From assembly GCA_963920635.1 (NCBI GenBank), contig OY987302.1, positions 46,937,500-47,001,499 of the forward strand: a DNA stretch of 64,000 nt, read 5' to 3'. The DNA is from Pseudeuparius sepicola (taxonomy: Eukaryota > Arthropoda > Insecta > Coleoptera > Anthribidae). This document shows, one piece after another, positions 303 through 61,808 of the stretch (positions within the stretch are counted from its first letter, which is position 1; each line of letters begins with the position of its first letter). A program made the translations under genes and the position numbers. The notes below the pieces were generated by a model that made no database searches, was not told where the DNA came from, and saw only the letters and a list, made by a program, of their open reading frames with translations.

Positions 303-549
303 GGATGACCCCGAGGCCTACGATAAAGGCAGGTCATGGCGCTCAAAAATCACGTGACCATCTTAGTCCGACGTTACATGTCATTTGTCACATAACTGAA
401 AGCCTGAAAGCGGCAGCTTGAGTTTTGAGAAGTTTTAAATGTTTAACGTGTTTTTAAACGTCTTAGTTTATATTTTAGAAACAAGTTTGTGTCTAGTGCG
501 CGTGTGTGCCGTGTCTCCTTGCGGAGGGGAACCGCCCAGGTGTTATTAT

Positions 550-584
550 CATAGAAGAATCTACTACGACTAGATTCTTCTATG
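550..584. mobile_element. 35-bp micro-hairpin with 7-bp flanking repeat
   Basis: Arms CATAGAAGAATCTA and TAGATTCTTCTATG are perfectly complementary around a 7-base loop. TTATTAT flanks both sides (543-549 and 585-591). It is inserted within the THAP-bearing element. A homologous hairpin lies in the opposite orientation at 44978-45008. Confidence 0.75.
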
Positions 585-1061
585 TTATTATGGCCTCTGG
601 GTCTGGGTGGGAGTCGTGCCGTCCAGGAGTATTGGTGCCGCTCGCACCGACGCCTGAGCGCTGTAAGGGGAAGGGGAGCCTGAGACACAGGAGCCTGAGA
701 CACAGACTGGTGAACTGCTTACGAGAGATCCGCGAGTTCAGACGGTCCGGGTGGCTGGAAACCGTTCCCGTTGACCACGTTCAGGTTTGTGTATTTTGTA
801 TTCACCATTCACCTTGTGCGAAATAAATCAGTGTTATAACGTACTCGAGGATTTTCGTTGTCGACCTACGCCCCGATTCGGTTCCTATTCGGCCTTTGAC
901 GCTGCGGATCAACAGGGACCTCTTCAATATTTACAGTATACTGAGGTGAGTTTTCATTTTTATTTCGTAAAAAATAACCTAAATACCAAATATTGAGTCT
1001 GTTTATATTATATTTATACATATTACAAATAAGCCAGGAAGAAAATGTCACCATAACAACA

Positions 1062-11013: not shown

Positions 11014-11812
11014 AGTTATATGTATACCTTATAATAATTATCAATTTTACAATACTGTATAGGAGTTGTTCTAGCTGTTCTAACCTATACTATTTAACAG
11101 AGTACAGAGATACTAATGTAGATTCGCATTTATTAAGTGTTATTTGCATTTGGACTTGGTGGTGATTTTCTATCAAGCCTTCTCCGAATAGAACCACAGG
11201 TCAAACCTCAGATCAAATATTATTTTTGGTCTGAGGGTCAAACGCTTCGTAACGTCACCAGTACACTTTCATAACAGCATAAACTGAAGGTTTTTAGAAA
11301 CACAATATACTCCAGTATGTATATTATTTAGTAATTCTAAAAAGAAAAAATATTTTTAGCTTTTCCCTATATTACTGAATGGAAGAACTTTCTACATTAT
11401 CTAAACGCTTGCTGTTCGAGATGCGTAAGTATTATAGGTTTCCTGGATTTTGGATATATGTCGTGTTGATAATTATATTATTTAGAGTTTTCATAACACA
11501 CGCGATTCTTGCGGTAGGTTCTGAAAAACCAATCCGACTGCACTTACCAGTAAAATAATCTGATTAGGCAACGTACCGTTAAAAATTAGGTTTTTCTGAT
11601 TTGCCTGCCACTGAGATGACAATAGAATACTCACAATTATTGTGAATTAGTGCGGAATAAACCAGCGGAATTCACCTGGAGATAGGCACTTAATACCATG
11701 GAGAGAGAGACAGAGAGCCTCGAGAAAATTATTGTTTATTTGAGAACTAGGTTAGTAGTACCACAGCATCGAATGCTGCGCAATAGATTCCTATTTATTA
11801 TATGATACTTAC
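11014..11812. other. Downstream side (intron) of the SAPCD2-like gene
   Basis: No second coding exon could be recognised. A short GA-rich run occurs near 11701-11718. Confidence 0.4.
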
Positions 11813-13030: not shown

Positions 13031-13584
13031 GAAACGGTTAGGTGTGGGATGAATTTATGAAAAAATTACAGTTTGACGTACATGCATAATGTCAACCGTA
13101 TTTTTTTCAAATTTTCGTTTATAATTAGTGAAGTACAACCGACTACCGTAGTTATATTCCTCGTACATAAGTCATATTATATACCTACTTATAGACCGTC
13201 AGATAGTGACAGATTTAGGTGCCCCATTTTCGCATACAAAGCCTCGAAGAGAGATGGAAAGTATATAAAAAAATGTTTCAGAGAAGAGTTTTTCAGTCGT
13301 TGATCTATCTGCATATTCTGGTGACCTTGAATTTTTTTGGGAGCCAGTCATTTCGTTCCCATGGCAACCAACTTTGTTTTTTAAATGGCACCATACACTT
13401 TTCTGTTCAAATTTGGAATCAGCTCCTTTTTGTGCATGCGAACATGTAAAATTTCATTAGGTTGCATGAGAAAATTTTTGAGAAACAGTATAATTTTTGG
13501 AAGTACGCCAAAATTTAAATTCGAAAGCGTTGCCTAAAAAGTAGGCCATACCTAATGAACATTTTGACACTTACTAGTTGCTTA
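13031..13584. other. Spacer with a solitary MITE end
   Basis: TATAGACCGTCAGATAGTGA near 13192 resembles the terminus of the foldback at 13699, but no partner arm follows. No gene is seen. Confidence 0.4.
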
Positions 13585-13698
13585 GTAGTATCAAAGTCTA
13601 GAGAATGCTATAAGTCAGCTCACTTCTTTGTTCTCTCGGAGAAAACAACATTTTTTTGCGACTGGTCGTAAATCAGCCTCGAACCGCTCTCAGCTACA

Positions 13699-14577
13699 TA
13701 TAGACCGGGAGATAGTGACAGATTTTTGGACGTGATTTTACTCAGTATGCCTTGCAAAGGGCATTATGTGGCACATATTCTCACAATAATAAGGTATGAA
13801 CCAGAGAGTCATCCTGGGTTCTTCATATGAAAAACTGAGTTTTCAATTATTCGAAAAATATGCGTTTTGATATGATTTTAGTCAGGCTGCCATGTGTTTT
13901 ATAATGAAGTTCAAAATAGAAAATTCCTCGGAAAACCATAGGCATACCGTTAGCGTGGGTTCAAAGGGCTATTATTGTCACGTGAACTTGTATTTTAATA
14001 ATTAGTTTTTCCACGCTTCTGAACAGGCTGCCAAGGAGAAGTATGCAAGTGCTTGTTATGAAAATGCTGAAAAAAGGATACCATACCTTTTACGCTTGTC
14101 CAAGTACTGTTTAAATCGAATTTTTACTTGGATATGCGCAAACAGTATGCCATCTTTTCTTCAGCAGTTTCATAACAAGAACTTGCATACTTCTCATTGG
14201 CAGCCTGTTTAGAAACGTGGAAAAATTAATTATTAAAATACAAGATCACGTGGCAATAATAGCCCTTTGGACCCACCCTAATAACGGTATGCCTATGGTT
14301 TTCCGAGGAATTTTCTATTTGAACTTCATTATAAAACACATGGCAGCCTGTATAAAATCATATCAAAACGCATATTTTTCGAATAATTGAAAACTCAGTT
14401 TTTCACATGAAGAACCCAGGATGACTCTCTGATTCATACCTTATTATTGTGAGAATACGTGCCACATAATGCCCTTTGCAAGGCATACTGAGTAATATCA
14501 CGTCCAAAAATCTGTCACTATCTCCCGGCAAAGTTTACAGAATAAAATATTTCTGTAAACTTTGCTCCCAGTCTATA
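13699..14577. mobile_element. Foldback MITE nested in the CAAAG element
   Basis: The left end TATAGACCGGGAGATAGTGA is mirrored by ...CTATCTCCCGG[insert]GTCTATA at the right. The arms match for about 350 bp (for example CCAGGATGACTCTCTG against its complement). A 36-bp hairpin interrupts the right terminus. Confidence 0.88.
14529..14564. mobile_element. 36-bp micro-hairpin inserted in a MITE terminus
   Basis: Arms CAAAGTTTACAG and CTGTAAACTTTG are perfect complements around a 12-base loop. Flanks are CTCCCGG (14522-14528) and CTCCCAG (14565-14571). The other end of the same MITE (13699-13715) lacks the hairpin and has the target only once, which demonstrates insertion with a 7-bp duplication. 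Confidence 0.88.
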
Positions 14578-15179
14578 AGCTTATTTTCTTATCAAATAAG
14601 ATATCGATCGCCGTACTCCGATGACGGCGGGCCGAGGGAGCGGGAGACGGCAGGGGGGAAACGTTTGTTTACACAAGGCCGAGTGCGCCGACTTATAGTA
14701 TTCTCTAGACTTTGGTAGCATTTTCTTTGATATAGGCTGTTTGTAGTTTATTTTAAAAACATTCATTTATAATTCCCAATTCTAGGCGCGATTTAAAAAT
14801 ATATAGGAAAATATATTCAAAATTTTCTCAAGCTTTTGATGGTACTGTTGAAATTTGCATATTCGACATAATATACAGGGTGTGACACAAACTTGTATTT
14901 TTTTAATGGAACACCCTGTATATTTTTTCATATTTAGAAAGGCCTTGAAACATCTTTTCCAAAAATATATACTTGTTGGTATCTTTATCGATCCGTTTTA
15001 ACAATATCTACAATTTTTTAAAGAAAATCTTATGGTGATAGTTGCCAATACCAAATTAAACAACAAGATAGTGGTTAATTATTTATATTTTATTTCAATG
15101 TAATTAGGTTAAAATAAAATTAAGCTTAATAATACTTATATAATACCTAATTAGTCGGTATACAATAGGCAAAGTTAAC

Positions 15180-17811: not shown

Positions 17812-17844
17812 CAAAGTCTAGAGTATAGTATTCTCTAGACTTTG
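17812..17844. mobile_element. 33-bp micro-hairpin, minimal copy of the CAAAG element
   Basis: CAAAGTCTAGAG and CTCTAGACTTTG are perfect 12-bp arms around TATAGTATT. The same sequence forms the ends of the 1.1-kb element at 13592-14714. The immediate flanks (TCTATAG, GTATTAA) are not a duplication. Confidence 0.65.
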
Positions 17845-20845: not shown

Positions 20846-22196
20846 AAAGCTTGTTTAAAAAATATTTTCATTTTATTTTGTGCTTTTTAGTACCTATTTG
20901 ATTCCAATGTCAGGAGGGTAGTAAAGAAATTTAGCCCGCCATCTTGAGGCGGCCGCCATATTGGATTTCGTATGACGTCATTCACTTTATGGTTTTCTAC
21001 CCGTCGAGTCCCAAGGTTAGTGGAGAGTAGGTTGAACCGTTGATTGAGACGGTTGAACGGTAACTTTTCGGTTCATGCGATGACGTCACATATGGATATC
21101 GTGTGCATATAATATTAGCTTGTACGTGGCTTGTACGCCTGCAAGGTTAGTAAAGAGCTAAATATCAGGATAATAATATCTAATTATTTGTTTTACAATA
21201 CACCTGCATGAATTTTATGTTTTAATTAAGGTAGGTAATACACTATAAAAATATAATATCTATAAAACTGCCCAAAGATAGTGTAACAATCGCCACACAC
21301 GTTTAAACAAACAAGCTAAAATCGAAATTATTTAAATGAGCTAAAACGAGAGAACGCTAAACCATCTGAATGAATGTAAACTCAAAGCAAGTATCCATTT
21401 TATCCACATGTGACGTCACAGCCTTCCCCTTCCCGCTCGCCTCACCCGAGTTACCGTTCAACCTAATCTCTACTAACCTTGGTCGAGCTCTTTCGTGTGA
21501 TACCCATATTGGGTATCAAATAGGTAATCCGCCATCTTGGAGCGGCGGCCATATTGAATTTAGTGTGATGTCCCTAACTTTATCGTTTTCTATTCTTCAA
21601 GCTCTTTCATTTGATACCCCATATTAAGCAGGTTGAAAAGAAAATGTAATCCGCCATCTTTGAGCGGCGGTCATATTGAATTTAGTGTTATGTCACTAAC
21701 TTTATCGTTTTCTAGTCTTCAAGCCCCTTCATTTGAAACCCACATTAAGGGGGTTGACAAAAAATACATCATCCGCCATTTTGGAGCGGCGGCCATATCG
21801 AACTTAGTGTGATGTAACTAACTTTTCCGTTTTCTACTCTTCAAGCCCTTTCATTTGAAACCCATATTAAGGGGGTTGACAAAAATACATCATCCGCCAT
21901 CTTGGAGCGGCGACCATATTGAATTTAGTGTGATATCACTAACTTTATCGTTTTCTACTTTTTAAGCCCTTTCATTTGATACCCATATTAAGAGGGTCGA
22001 CAAAAAATACATCATCCGACATCTTGGAGCGGCGGCCATTTTGAAAGTATTACAATAATGAGTAGTGCATAGTATATTGTCACCGGAACTAAAGGTGTAT
22101 GCAAAATTTCAGCTCAATCGGATGTCAGGAAGTGGTTCTAATTCGGCTTGCAAGATTCTGCCCACACTAACATGTGAAGTTAAATAAAAGCTTGCC
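20846..22196 (+). repeat. Element with 121-bp tandem units and AAATAAAAGCTT at both ends
   Basis: TTAAATAAAAGCTTG occurs near 20850 and again near 22180 in the same orientation. Between them lie at least five units of about 121 bp, each starting CCGCCATCTTGGAGCGGCGG (about 21531, 21651, 21772, 21893, 22014). A diverged early unit lies at 20938. The tail contains AAAATTTCAGCTCAATCGG. The same architecture recurs at 36684-37411, and the tail alone at 62975-63085. The transposon class is unknown. Confidence 0.75.
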
Positions 22197-23081: not shown

Positions 23082-23088
23082 ATTCTAG

Positions 23089-23124
23089 CACAGACATATA
23101 TAGCTTCGCCTATATAGGTCTGTG
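23089..23124. mobile_element. 36-bp micro-hairpin with 7-bp flanking repeat
   Basis: CACAGACATATATAG and CCTATATAGGTCTGTG pair with one or two mismatches around a TTCG-containing loop. ATTCTAG stands directly on both sides (23082-23088 and 23125-23131). Confidence 0.78.
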
Positions 23125-23344
23125 ATTCTAGTTTTAGGATTCGTGACAATCGGCAATGTTCATGCTACTGTCGACAGCATTTCCCTTAAACAAAGAAGAA
23201 AAGCTAGGCAGGTAGGTACCTACTCCTCTAAAGCTGCAGATGGATGGAGGGAAATGCGTTGCCATTTGTAGATTTGTAACATAATAGTCGAACCAAACTC
23301 GTTTGACTATGGTAATATTGCTTATTTTCAAGTTTAGATTTTAA

Positions 23345-28664: not shown

Positions 28665-29537
28665 CTGAAAACAAAACATTATTCAATATGTAATCGGCGA
28701 TAATTGCGAAAAATGCGCGACGTGAGTGTGCCGCGTCGTCACGTGGGGGACCGGCGATTTACCTGTTTCTGTTTGTTAGCATCTTGGCCGAGATTTCTAC
28801 CTGCGGCGATGGAAATTTCCCATACCGACCACTTCTCAAAATTTATTATTGGGATGGGAGCAACTCGCATTCCGATAAATATAAAAGCCTTTTCTACCTA
28901 TAGACAAGTCCGCTACCGACACTATTTAGTATTAGTACGATATTGTTCCGATTGAACTAGGACAAATTGGGTTATTATTGTTGGTCTGAGGATATTTTTC
29001 TATTTTTTGTGTTGATATAAAATATAATGTTGTTGTTTTAGACGGTGTATTATAACGAGAGAATTATTACTGATAAGTTAGCGAAGTAATGGGCAAATCA
29101 AATAGATGACTTAACATCTACAAGGCACATTAATCAATAATGTACATTTTTAAAACCGATCAGTGAGGTAGGATGCACTACGTTATGGGTTTTTAATTCC
29201 TTGTACTTTTGCAATTAGAGTTTGAACGTCGCGTCGTGTCGATATGTTTAAATTTGCGAGGATATTCTCCTTGGCGTCAACCAAAAAGAAAAAGTCAAGC
29301 GGTGATATTTAGATGGCACGATCTGGATCAATTAAAGTCCTAGTTTAACTCGAGCAGCGAAGCACTTCTTTGCGTTCTTGTGTAATTCATATCGCTAGGT
29401 GGCTTGAGATATAATAAGTACTGTCTAAGCCTATCTCGTCTAATACAAGATAACTGATGTATTTGCTAAATTTTGAAATTGTCCATTGGGCTTGTACGAT
29501 TAAAATTTTAAAATTGATTTTATGAGTGTACTTGAGA
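28665..29537. other. Intron of the membrane-protein gene
   Basis: No exon or element was found in this part. The intron continues to 33816 and is otherwise filled by two foldback elements. Confidence 0.5.
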
Positions 29538-29553
29538 ACTACACCTTTTCCAC

Positions 29554-29936
29554 ATGTAATTCAGAAAGCATCAATTGAAATTCAGATTAGTCAAATGAAT
29601 TTCAGAATGGGTCAGATGTAATTCAGAAATATCAGTTGTAATTCAGAAAACATCAAATGTAATTCAGATTTGTCAATTGTAATTCAGAAAGCGTCAGATG
29701 TAATTCAGATTCGTTAAATGAAATTCAGAAAAGATCAAATGTAATTCAGATTTGTCAATTGTAATTCAGAAAGCGTCAGATGTAATTCAGAAAGCGTCAG
29801 ATGTAATTCAGAAACGATCATATGTAATTCAGATTCGTCAATTTCGGAAAAGATCAAATGTAATTCAGAAAGCATCAATTGTAATTCAGAAAGTGTCATT
29901 TGTAATTCAGAACTCCCACTTGTAATTTATTTCACA
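29554..29936 (+). repeat. Left tandem array, 20-21-bp units
   Basis: About 19 units sharing the core TAATTCAGA, with variable tails such as AAGCGTCAGATG, TTTGTCAATTG and AAAGATCAAATG. Confidence 0.9.
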
Positions 29937-31034
29937 AAACATTTAATAGAGGGAGGTCTAAAAAAATTTCAAATTAGTAGATAGATCTTATTATACATGG
30001 TGTCTACGTTTAAACCTATACAAATTCATAAAATATTTATTTTTGGAGATAACCTCCTGGCCTTTGTTTTGTTTGAAAGGAATTGAAAAACCTCTTCTTT
30101 TGACCTTTCTACCATTTTCAAAATGCAAATTCGAGGCCAGCTACGATTTTTCTTATACCCCAGATTTTCAGGAAAACCACTTAGCAATATTTTTATTTAA
30201 ATTCTCACACCACAGAGTAAATCAGGACACCCCAAAACCATGCCCATAAAGCAAACTTAAAGGGAGTTTCATTCTGCAGGGTGTCAAAGCCGAACAATAT
30301 ATTAATTTTAAAGTGATGTGGCGAGTCAAATGTGGCATGAAATCCCCTCGAAATTGTTGAAGGATGAACAGGACCACAGCAAAATTGGTGTTCCATCTCA
30401 AAGTACTGCTTTTTTTATACTTTATAGGGATCGAAAATTGACTACACATATCAAAGCCGCTCCAGACACTATAAACGAACTAAGTCTAAAAAATACAAAA
30501 GCCTGCTATGTAGTCAGTAAGTCCATACGACTTAAGGTGGCTGGTGTGCCACAACACGAACACACAGAAAATGTATCACCTTAGACAGTACCTACATATT
30601 TGTATTGAATCTTGCACACCAATACTTTATTGACCATTCAACTGTTCTGAGGGTATTCCGTGGCACACTTGACTCGTCAGACTCCATTAAAATTCATATT
30701 TTGCTCAATTTTGGCACCCTGCAGAAGGAAACGCCTTTTAAGTGTGCTTTATGGGCGGGGTTTGTGTGAGAATTTAAATAAAAATATCGCTAAGTGGTTT
30801 CCGTAAAAATCTGGGGTATAAAAAAAATCGTAGCCGCCCTCGAAATCGCATTTTGAAAATGGTAGGAAGGTCAAAAGAAGAGGTTTTTGAAGGGCTTTCA
30901 AACAAAAAAAAGTCCAGGAGGTCATCTCCAAAAATAAAGATTTTATGGATTTGTATAGGTTTAAAAAGTAGACACCATGTATATCCACTAATTTGAAATT
31001 TTTTTAGAACTCCCTCTATGAAGTGTTTTGTGAA

Positions 31035-31430
31035 ATAAATTGCAAGTGGAGGTTCTGAATTACAAATGACACTTTCTGAATTACAACTGATGCTTTCTGA
31101 ATTACATTTGATCTTTTCCGAAATTGAATTGACGAATCTGAATTACGTGTGACCGTTTCTGAATTACATCTGACGCTTTCTGAATTACATCTGACAAATC
31201 TGAATTACATTTGATCTTTTCTGAATTTCATTTAACGAATCTGAATTACATATGACGCTTTCTGAATTACAATTGACAAATCTGAATTACATTTGATATT
31301 TTCTGAATTACAACTGATACTTCTGAATTACATCTGACCTATTCTGAATTTTAATTGATGCTTTCTGAATTTCAATTGATGCTTTCTGAATTATAGTTGA
31401 CGTATTCTGAATTACATATGGAAAAGGTGT
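31035..31430 (-). repeat. Right tandem array, same units inverted
   Basis: TCTGAATTAC-type units, the complement of the left array and similar in number. The tail variants occur in a mirrored but not identical order. Confidence 0.9.
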
Positions 31431-36722: not shown

Positions 36723-37411
36723 TTTATTTTGTAATTTTTAGTTTGGCCAGGTGTCTGAGTCTATTCATCTCAGTTAACGCATCATTGTTGCAAGGTCGTT
36801 TGCCGGTTAGTTTAGAACAGTCTAGCTCTTCAATGAGGAGACCTTCTAATGACCATCTTGGGTGTTCCGCCATGTTGGATTTAGAATGACGTCACACATA
36901 TAATCATGCATTGTCATCCAAATTAAACGTGTGTACAAAATTTCAGCTCGATCGGTTGAAATTTAACTAGTCCGCCATCTTGAGTGTTCCGCCATGTTGG
37001 ATTTAGAATGACGTCACACATATAATCATGCATTGTCATCCAAATTAAACGTGTGTACAAAATTTCAGCTCGATCGGTTGAAATTTAACTAGTCCGCCAT
37101 CTTGAGTGTTCCGCCATGTTGGATTTAGAATGACGTCACACATATAATCATGCATTGTCATCCAAATTAAACGTGTGTACAAAATTTCAGCTCGATCGGT
37201 TGAAATTTAACTAGTCCGCCATCTTGGGTGATCCGCCATGTTGGATTTAGAATGACGTCACACATATAATCATGCATTGTCATCCAAATTAAACGTGTGT
37301 ACAAAATTTCAGCTCGATCGGTTGAAGATATCTGCTTCAAAATTGAGTTGCAAGATTCCACCCGAACAAATTACATACATACATACATACATACATACAT
37401 TGCAAGTTAAA
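36684..37411 (+). repeat. Element with four 122-bp tandem units
   Basis: AAATAAAAGCTT starts near 36687 and recurs near 37400. Between them are four units of 122 bp (CCGCCATCTTGAGTGTTCCG..., from about 36850, 36971, 37093 and 37215), nearly identical to one another. A diverged tail contains CAGCTCGATCGGTTGAAGAT and a (CATA)n run at 37374-37401. Confidence 0.88.
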
Positions 37412-37560
37412 TAAAAGCTTTTAAAAAGAACATCCAGTACGTCGGTAATCATAATCACTTCGACTTCGGGCTTCTGCGCTTTCTGCTGCAGCGTTACCGG
37501 TGCACTTTAGGGATGCGCCGCGACCTCTGGTGACGACCCGTGGTACCCTAAATTATTATA

Positions 37561-44428: not shown

Positions 44429-44977
44429 TAATATAAAAAATGGCTAAAATCTAAACATATTAGGAGAGATTTAAAATTTGGTGGCAAGTATGCTTATGTG
44501 AAATTGAAAAGAAATAACTTTTGCAAGTAATACTTTTTTACAATTTCAACAAAAAAATAATCAAATTTTTAGCACGTAACCATATTTGAGTGGGTAATTT
44601 TTCATCTTTTTTAAAGCAAAAGGTACCCCAAAGTTAAATATCAAAATAAATATTATGTTAGATAATGTTAAAGCTTTGTTACCTAAATTCTTCATTGTAA
44701 AGTTTGACGGGACGGTGTGTATTTTCATTTCTAATATTATTTAAATAGAAACGCATATATTAATTAATATTTTTGACTCAACACCATATTAATTTTACTA
44801 ATAGGACAGAAACTCTCTTGACAAATATTTGTCAAGTGCAGTGGAGGTTCAAACGATATTTTGTAGACTTTTCAAATTTTAGTCTATGGATCTTGAAGAT
44901 TCACGCTGGAAGTAGCTTATGATGTCATAGATATGACTACATGTGATATGTGTCCAGAAATTTAAATTACACCAAGG

Positions 44978-45008
44978 CATAGAAGAATCCGTAGTAGATT
45001 CTTCTATG
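44978..45008. mobile_element. 31-bp micro-hairpin with 7-bp flanking repeat
   Basis: CATAGAAGAATC and GATTCTTCTATG pair perfectly around CGTAGTA. ACCAAGG stands on both sides (44971-44977 and 45009-45015). It is the same hairpin as at 550-584 in opposite orientation, lacking four loop bases. Confidence 0.85.
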
Positions 45009-45015
45009 ACCAAGG

Positions 45016-61107: not shown

Positions 61108-61800
61108 CACGGGCGTAGCCAGGATTTAGTTTTGGGGGGGGGGGGTTTAGTTTGAGAAGTAAATAAAACAACAAAAATATACTTATATGAAATTTAATAT
61201 CTATATATCCATCCGAAAAACTACGACATATATTTATAAAGTTCTTAACTTTAAATGAAATGGATAAATTAATTTCCTTCCTCTGCGCTAAATCTAAAAC
61301 CATTAAAGAAGAAATCTTCGGCTTTTTCTTTTAAATATATCTACTACTTCATCTGCATGAATTTCTGTTCCATAGTGAATGTTCATTAGAGCCAAACCAT
61401 TAAGTCTGTTTTCACTTGTAGTGTTTCGTAAATAGTTTTTCAGTCTCCTTAGGCTCGAGAAAGACCTTTCTGGGGTAGCAGTGGATACAGGAATGGTAGC
61501 CAAGATTTGTAGTAATGTGTAAATATTAGGATAAAGGTTTTTATCGCACATATCTAGGCGTTCCAAACTAGATTTCGGGGTAGGCAGTCTTCTTATCAGC
61601 ATGCAAGGTAGCTGAAGCTTTGATAGCTAAATCCAAATTTGTTTCTTTATTAGAAACCCCTTTACCTTGACTACACCATTTTTTCCAGTAGTCCATACCT
61701 TTAGGTTTACCACCCTTCCTTTTTTTCCCCTCCATTTTTCGACAGTAATAATGATTCACGTCTCTATCCTTAACAAGGATAGATAATATTAGGTAATATT
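61108..61800 (-). mobile_element. Truncated hAT transposon
   Basis: CACGGGCGTAGCCAGGATTT followed by a long G run is a hAT-type terminus at the element's 3' end. The coding remnant lies on the minus strand. The opposite terminus was not found. Confidence 0.65.
61303..61759 (-). pseudogene. hAT transposase, internally deleted
   Basis: The C-terminal 99 codons (61602-61303) include ATIPVSTATPERSFSSLRRL and NGLALMNIHYG, the hAT dimerisation domain. The upstream minus-strand frame (61759-61568) has a basic start, MEGKKRKGGKPKG, and KKWCSQGKGVSNKETN. The two frames overlap but do not join, and the catalytic core between them is missing, which indicates an internal deletion plus frameshift. Confidence 0.88.
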
Positions 61801-61808
61801 ATCTATCC
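61777..61808. repeat. 32-bp hairpin flanked by TTAACAA
   Basis: GGATAGATAATATT and AATATTATCTATCC pair perfectly around AGGT. TTAACAA flanks both sides, but the direct repeat is longer (TCTATCCTTAACAA), so a local rearrangement could also explain it. Confidence 0.5.

Follow-up and report, generated by a model that had tools for sequence, protein, structure and literature searches.

The window analysed here is a 64,000-nucleotide stretch of the genome of the beetle Pseudeuparius sepicola. In it, a foldback repeat is nested inside an element with CAAAGTCTAGAGAATRCTATAAGTC ends and carries, near its right end, a 36-bp hairpin flanked by 7-mers. The features of this locus and of similar hairpins in the window are listed below, as read from the sequence unless other evidence is given.

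543 to 591, forward strand: hairpin CATAGAAGAATCTACTACGACTAGATTCTTCTATG (550 to 584) with TTATTAT duplications; three related repeats are without the hairpin; no parent seen
13585 to 13591, forward strand: left duplication, GTAGTAT, of the element at 13592 to 14714
13592 to 14714, unstranded: element with CAAAGTCTAGAGAATRCTATAAGTC ends, the foldback nested inside; its outer parts match locus L004 at 1538 to 1625 and 2086 to 2217
13699 to 13715, forward strand: left foldback end, TATAGACCGGGAGATAG, the unoccupied sequence
13699 to 14577, unstranded: foldback repeat with two inverted arms (13705 to 13915 and 14318 to 14528, 97% complementary), hosting the scar
14522 to 14528, forward strand: left 7-bp target-site duplication, CTCCCGG, which fits the motif of the genomic duplications (Y at position 2, R at position 6)
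14529 to 14564, forward strand: 36-bp hairpin CAAAGTTTACAG-AATAAAATATTT-CTGTAAACTTTG, a probable excision scar (sequence, folding and stub analysis)
14565 to 14571, forward strand: right 7-bp duplication, CTCCCAG, one mismatch from the left
14715 to 14721, forward strand: right duplication, GTAGCAT, of the element at 13592 to 14714, one mismatch
17812 to 17844, forward strand: 33-bp hairpin from ends of the CAAAGTCTAGAG family, no recognisable duplication
23082 to 23131, forward strand: hairpin CACAGACATATATAGCTTCGCCTATATAGGTCTGTG (23089 to 23124) with ATTCTAG duplications; relative at L053, 934 to 972; no parent seen
44971 to 45015, forward strand: hairpin CATAGAAGAATCCGTAGTAGATTCTTCTATG (44978 to 45008) with ACCAAGG duplications; ends as at 550 to 584, other junction; no parent seen

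The 36-bp hairpin lies between its two 7-mers as a sequence-only reading had described it, and the left arm of the foldback does provide an internal empty site. That reading had also called the hairpin perfect; hairpin and duplication stand, with a perfect stem of 14 bp inside the 36 bp (15 bp counting the flanking G/C pair) and 7-mers that are one base apart. Folded as DNA, the hairpin reaches -14.6 kcal/mol (z -7.2), and none of 200 shuffles folded equally well. The end sequence of the foldback, TATAGACCGTCAGATAGTGACAG, has a second copy at 13190-13206, 500 bp upstream, with no partner found in the window.

We searched the genome (769 Mb, 16 contigs) for CAAAGTTTACAG followed by 0-30 bases and CTGTAAACTTTG, and this 12+12-bp pattern was found at 422 places, while its reversed control was found at none. 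Thirty-five hairpins were read with their flanks, namely the first 15 loci and 20 others picked from 50 listed places of the 422, all on contig C1 below 65 Mb; 8 of the 20 were picked for belonging to a recurring 37-bp class. The 7-bp duplication is perfect in 29 of the 35, has one mismatch in five and is absent in one (L006), and a duplication of 5, 6, 8 or 9 bp fits none of them. At L030 the scar was extended to a second right end (54 bp) before counting; unextended, it showed no duplication. Position 2 is Y and position 6 is R in every one of the 29 perfect duplications, which come from 22 contexts; a base table of these contexts showed no clear motif beyond the 7 bp. The same two positions hold in 11 further duplications, those of four window hairpins, the 13592-14714 element, L052, L053 and four parent elements described below.

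Hairpin-free sites were found in related repeats elsewhere for five hairpins. The hairpin at 550 and one 7-mer are absent exactly from L008, L042 and L043, and the same exact loss separates L002, L009 and L024 from L037, L039 and L036, respectively; compared with L001, the hairpin-free L037 is without four further adjoining bases. The sequence-only reading had proposed a search for further genomic copies, and there are indeed many, with different flanks, 7-mers of their own and sites without the insert. A chance hairpin is ruled out by the folding shuffles and by the window-scan shuffles given next, and a one-off rearrangement by the 422 genomic places and the duplications at other sites.

Hairpins of 24-60 bp with 10-bp arms and at most one mismatch, lying between perfect duplications of k bases, were found in the window at 1, 2, 4, 1 and 0 places for k = 5, 6, 7, 8 and 9, compared with means of 0.3, 0.06, 0.0 and 0.0 at k = 5-8 in 100 dinucleotide shuffles. 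Three of the four places at k = 7 have CA...TG ends (550-584, 23089-23124 and 44978-45008); the hairpin at 14529-14564 is outside these four owing to the mismatch in its duplication. A similar scan of 20 stretches of 10 kb on contig C1, with hairpin lengths up to 70 bp, did not favour 7 bp (5, 10, 4, 6, 0 and 2 places at k = 5-10). Many of its places at k = 6, 8 and 10 are self-complementary AT-rich or ATCGAT-like words, and two of the four at k = 7 have CA...TG ends (L043 and L053, the ends of L053 being those of 23089-23124). Since the scan of contig C1 showed no preference for 7 bp, this length is established by the hairpin family itself, in which 29 of the 35 hairpins read have an exact duplication of 7 bp.

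The fixed part of the hairpins is also the end of larger elements of 186-223 bp with the same 7-bp duplications. A search with the 21-nt end, in a pattern that leaves out places with A at the last position, gave 195 + 177 = 372 places. The first 100 of these, which lie on contig C1 and on C2 up to 50 Mb and include copies riding in larger repeats, comprise 61 scars, 27 parent-like ends (a count of ends, not of elements) and 12 others. Past the 21-nt end, the parent-like ends continue mostly as [G/T][A/C]AGTTGGGTCACT. Four opposed pairs, L056-L059, form elements of 223, 223, 207 and 186 bp, which are too short for a transposase gene and have the characters of MITEs: they are short, with inverted ends, target duplications and several copies. 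Their inverted ends are identical over the first 21 nt and alike with few mismatches to about nt 37, and their 7-bp duplications are perfect in three of the four and have a mismatch in the other. Both L058 and L059 have internal deletions; in L058, one end has lost 16 bases immediately past nt 22, as though it might have been cut and rejoined internally. Within the window, a scan for long elements between perfect duplications revealed no parent of the CAAAGTTTACAG family.

The structure of the hairpins is that of two joined stubs, and the junctions are diverse. All 50 listed places of the 422 represent 30 distinct sequences, or 29 without the complex 49-bp sequence at L013. In each of the 29 simple hairpins, stubs of the two parent ends meet: they overlap by 1-3 nt in 9, abut directly in 6 and are separated by filler in 14; some fillers resemble variant ends, so that filler lengths are upper bounds. 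At most 23 nt of an end are kept in these 29, and in the scar at 14529 one end is kept to about nt 21-22 (CAAAGTTTACAGAATAAAATA) and the other to nt 14-15. The selection of the 61 scars among the listed 21-nt-end places requires at least 21 nt of one end; their kept lengths are 21 (4), 22 (43), 23 (13) and 24 (1) nt, with none above 24. At base 22, 21 of the 61 show the G specific to that end and 36 show a T that may derive from the opposite stub. Had a scar kept more than about 28 nt, it would have been counted as parent-like among the 100 places, and the 12+12-bp pattern could reveal kept lengths to about 40 nt; the limit near nt 22-24 is less firm than it appears. The stubs are lopsided, with 19-23 nt on the longer side in 18 of the 29 and 14-16 nt on the shorter side in 21, which is partly a product of sorting stubs into longer and shorter.

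We argue that the hairpin is most likely the scar of end-joining repair after a P-superfamily cut-and-paste transposon, of the Galileo-like branch with 7-bp duplications, was excised. An element with CAAAGTTTACAGAATAAAATA ends inserted and duplicated 7 bp, as the duplications and empty sites show. A transposase would then have excised it, with one strand cleaved inside each end, perhaps some 22 nt in, which would leave a stub of both ends on the chromosome. The junctions suggest that the stubs would have been trimmed and then joined, either by microhomology or through short fillers, some of them templated. Joining two inverted repeats yields a hairpin, of 28-54 bp among those read, flanked by a 7-mer on either side. 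In the scar at 14529, some 21-22 nt of one end and 14-15 nt of the other would have been retained. The acting transposase, its cut near nt 22 and the route of repair are what we infer from these features.

The short inverted ends of the P superfamily begin with CA, with the consensus CANRG, and the ends CAAAG, CATAG and CACAG found here fit this start. Duplications of 7 or 8 bp are a further trait of the superfamily, and those of the hairpins (29 of 35) and of the parents (three of four) are perfect at 7 bp; the target motif is palindromic, as it is for Galileo. Our search for the P transposase domain (PF12017) scored 150 matches of 849 candidates, all above the cut-off, in open frames of up to 821 aa, some of them 652-821 aa without stops. 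Since no P transposase gene was placed between CAAAGTTTACAG ends, the assignment to the superfamily is based on the length of the duplications, the target motif and the layout of the scars. That the transposase is not linked to these ends gives some support to the same mechanism in another superfamily, e.g. a hAT-like or Dada-like one with 7-bp duplications. We consider this unlikely: P-transposase matches are abundant (PF12017 was the domain searched for), the target motif is compatible with that of Galileo, and excision of hAT, Tc1/mariner and piggyBac elements leaves from none to a few bases rather than both ends to 15-22 nt.

Known P-type elements bear on the reading as excision scars from several sides. 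The available parts of PMC7776569 describe that Drosophila P transposase cuts one strand 17 nt inside the end, and those of PMC2895639 that the donor site is then end-joined, with stubs, microhomologies and inserts, some of them templated. The P{wa} junctions in Tables 2-3 of the latter come from spn-A mus308 mutant flies, with 23-68 junctions per genotype in the study. Their order of duplication, stub, microhomology or filler (some templated), stub and duplication, with a hairpin-like product, is that of the beetle hairpins, which are natural scars in a reference genome, unlike the P{wa} junctions (PMC2895639). In Drosophila P, however, the duplication is 8 bp and the stubs 17 nt (PMC2895639), whereas the beetle has 7-bp duplications and retains both ends, one side reaching as far as 22-24 nt and the other mostly 14-16 nt. 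Galileo, of the P superfamily, prefers GTANTAC as target and has mostly 7-bp duplications, which resembles the 7 bp with Y2 and R6 in the beetle; its ends are long with tandem repeats, in contrast to beetle parents of 186-223 bp whose ends are alike for about 37 nt (PMC4168063, in the parts available). Zebrafish Pdre and THAP9 elements likewise have short terminal repeats and internally deleted copies, but their duplications are 8 bp and, in the assay as excerpted, excision produced larger flanking deletions (PMC10983969, PMC7776569). Speaking against the reading as P-superfamily excision scars are the stubs, which are lopsided and on their longer side exceed the 17 nt known from Drosophila P; L006, without a duplication; two other end families of the window for which no parent was seen; and the presence of five of 21 scar sequences in several contexts, a pattern also expected of a mobile unit.

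Ordinary slippage or hairpin deletion between the inverted ends could also have removed the middle of larger elements, without a transposase. This would equally yield hairpins between 7-bp duplications and would agree with the internal deletions in L058 and L059. We regard such loss as very unlikely. The breakpoints of the 61 listed scars lie by nt 21-24, a limit less firm than it seems, yet the ends are similar to about nt 37; inserts as seen in L043 and L013 are consistent with break repair; and ends with an intact middle are still common (27 of the 100 listed).

The sequence-only reading had interpreted the 36 bp as a transposable unit. The insertion and its 7-bp duplication are borne out, and the 36 bp are probably better read as the remnant of a larger element than as a mobile unit. 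That hairpins of about 30-40 bp were themselves transposed, as the smallest nuclear MITEs and by a transposase recognising only the first dozen bases, would account for the many places that show 7-bp duplications or empty sites. The 35 hairpins read, however, have 21 different sequences of 28-54 bp in 26 flanking contexts, and their interiors differ at most sites (the constancy of the ends is partly by selection, since the search fixed 12+12 bp), so that one unit sequence at independent sites, as expected of a 36-bp MITE, was not what we found; eight of the 35 share one context and are carried along in a larger repeat. One site bears two different scars in paralogous copies: that of L035 measures 34 bp and that of L030/L043 54 bp, the additional 20 bp being the adjoining end and flank repeated in inverted order. 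Larger parents exist, and their joined stubs explain the interiors. Furthermore, Drosophila P carries transposase-binding sites within its terminal repeats, of a kind that a 36-bp unit would be without (PMC7776569, as far as its available parts go). Taken together, a mobile hairpin has little probability.

Some room for a micro-element is left by the five of 21 sequences that recur in 2-3 contexts, and by the 36-mer of the window, which is found on the other strand at L024 and L025; recurrent joining explains the five recurring sequences, and a mobile mini-unit would too. The recurring 37-bp class was rejected as a mobile one: eight of its nine copies read (L014, L016, L018-L023) are on one flank within a larger repeat, and L017 is its single independent site. 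It is conceivable, though improbable, that some recurring 30-37-bp hairpins were re-mobilised, scars having turned into elements; these would be, to our knowledge, the smallest nuclear transposable units.

Three further end families in the window have similar hairpins, one of them without a duplication. Of the related CAAAGTCTAGAG-end family, the foldback-interrupted element at 13592-14714 is a 1.1-kb member and L004 holds a relative; besides the hairpin at 17812, the family has one at L052 (1251-1284) whose duplication has one mismatch. The hairpins at 550-584 and 44978-45008 have common ends and different middles. No parents were seen for the CATAG and CACAG ends. Two more hairpins of the window were set aside from these scar families, as their ends do not begin with CA: GGATAGATAATATTAGGTAATATTATCTATCC at 61777-61808, with GG ends instead of CA..TG between perfect TTAACAA 7-mers, is perhaps another kind of scar or element, and CCTCAGATC...GGTCTGAGG at 11206-11236, with the 8-bp duplication GGTCAAAC after a one-base trim, could be a member of a family with 8-bp duplications. 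At L042 (4239-4267), a 29-bp hairpin, CGTTGAGTGAGGGAATAATTCATTCAACG, with GCGATAG duplications is possibly a further scar family. At L004 (1501-1544), a CAAAGTTTACAG scar adjoins the end of a CAAAGTCTAGA element, and GCGATAC is both the duplication of the scar and the flank of the element.

P-type excision scars are known from crosses between flies, in sets of a few dozen, such as the 23-68 junctions per genotype of PMC2895639. One beetle genome offers hundreds of candidates, recognisable because both stubs and the 7-bp duplication survive, as they do, with at most one mismatch in the duplication, in 34 of the 35 read. If our interpretation is right, the scars would record how the beetle germ line joins broken ends and where a P-like transposase outside Drosophila cuts, at perhaps some 22 nt in from the ends instead of 17, and would count excisions directly. 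For annotators, they would be a warning to treat such hairpins as footprints rather than as micro-MITEs. Our searches of the open literature showed no title or abstract on genome-wide P-type excision scars or with nuclear elements of about 36 bp, a weak negative, as most subscription journals lie outside it.

Elsewhere in the window, inverted arrays of a 21/41-bp TCTGAATTACA repeat lie at 29505-29932 and 31013-31425, and two arrays of a 122-bp tandem repeat with CCGCCATCTTGG-like words at 21496-22045 and 36731-37448. The window also contains a gene for suppressor APC domain-containing protein 2, whose closest named relatives are from the beetles Anoplophora (79%), Aethina (79%) and Gonioctena (78%).
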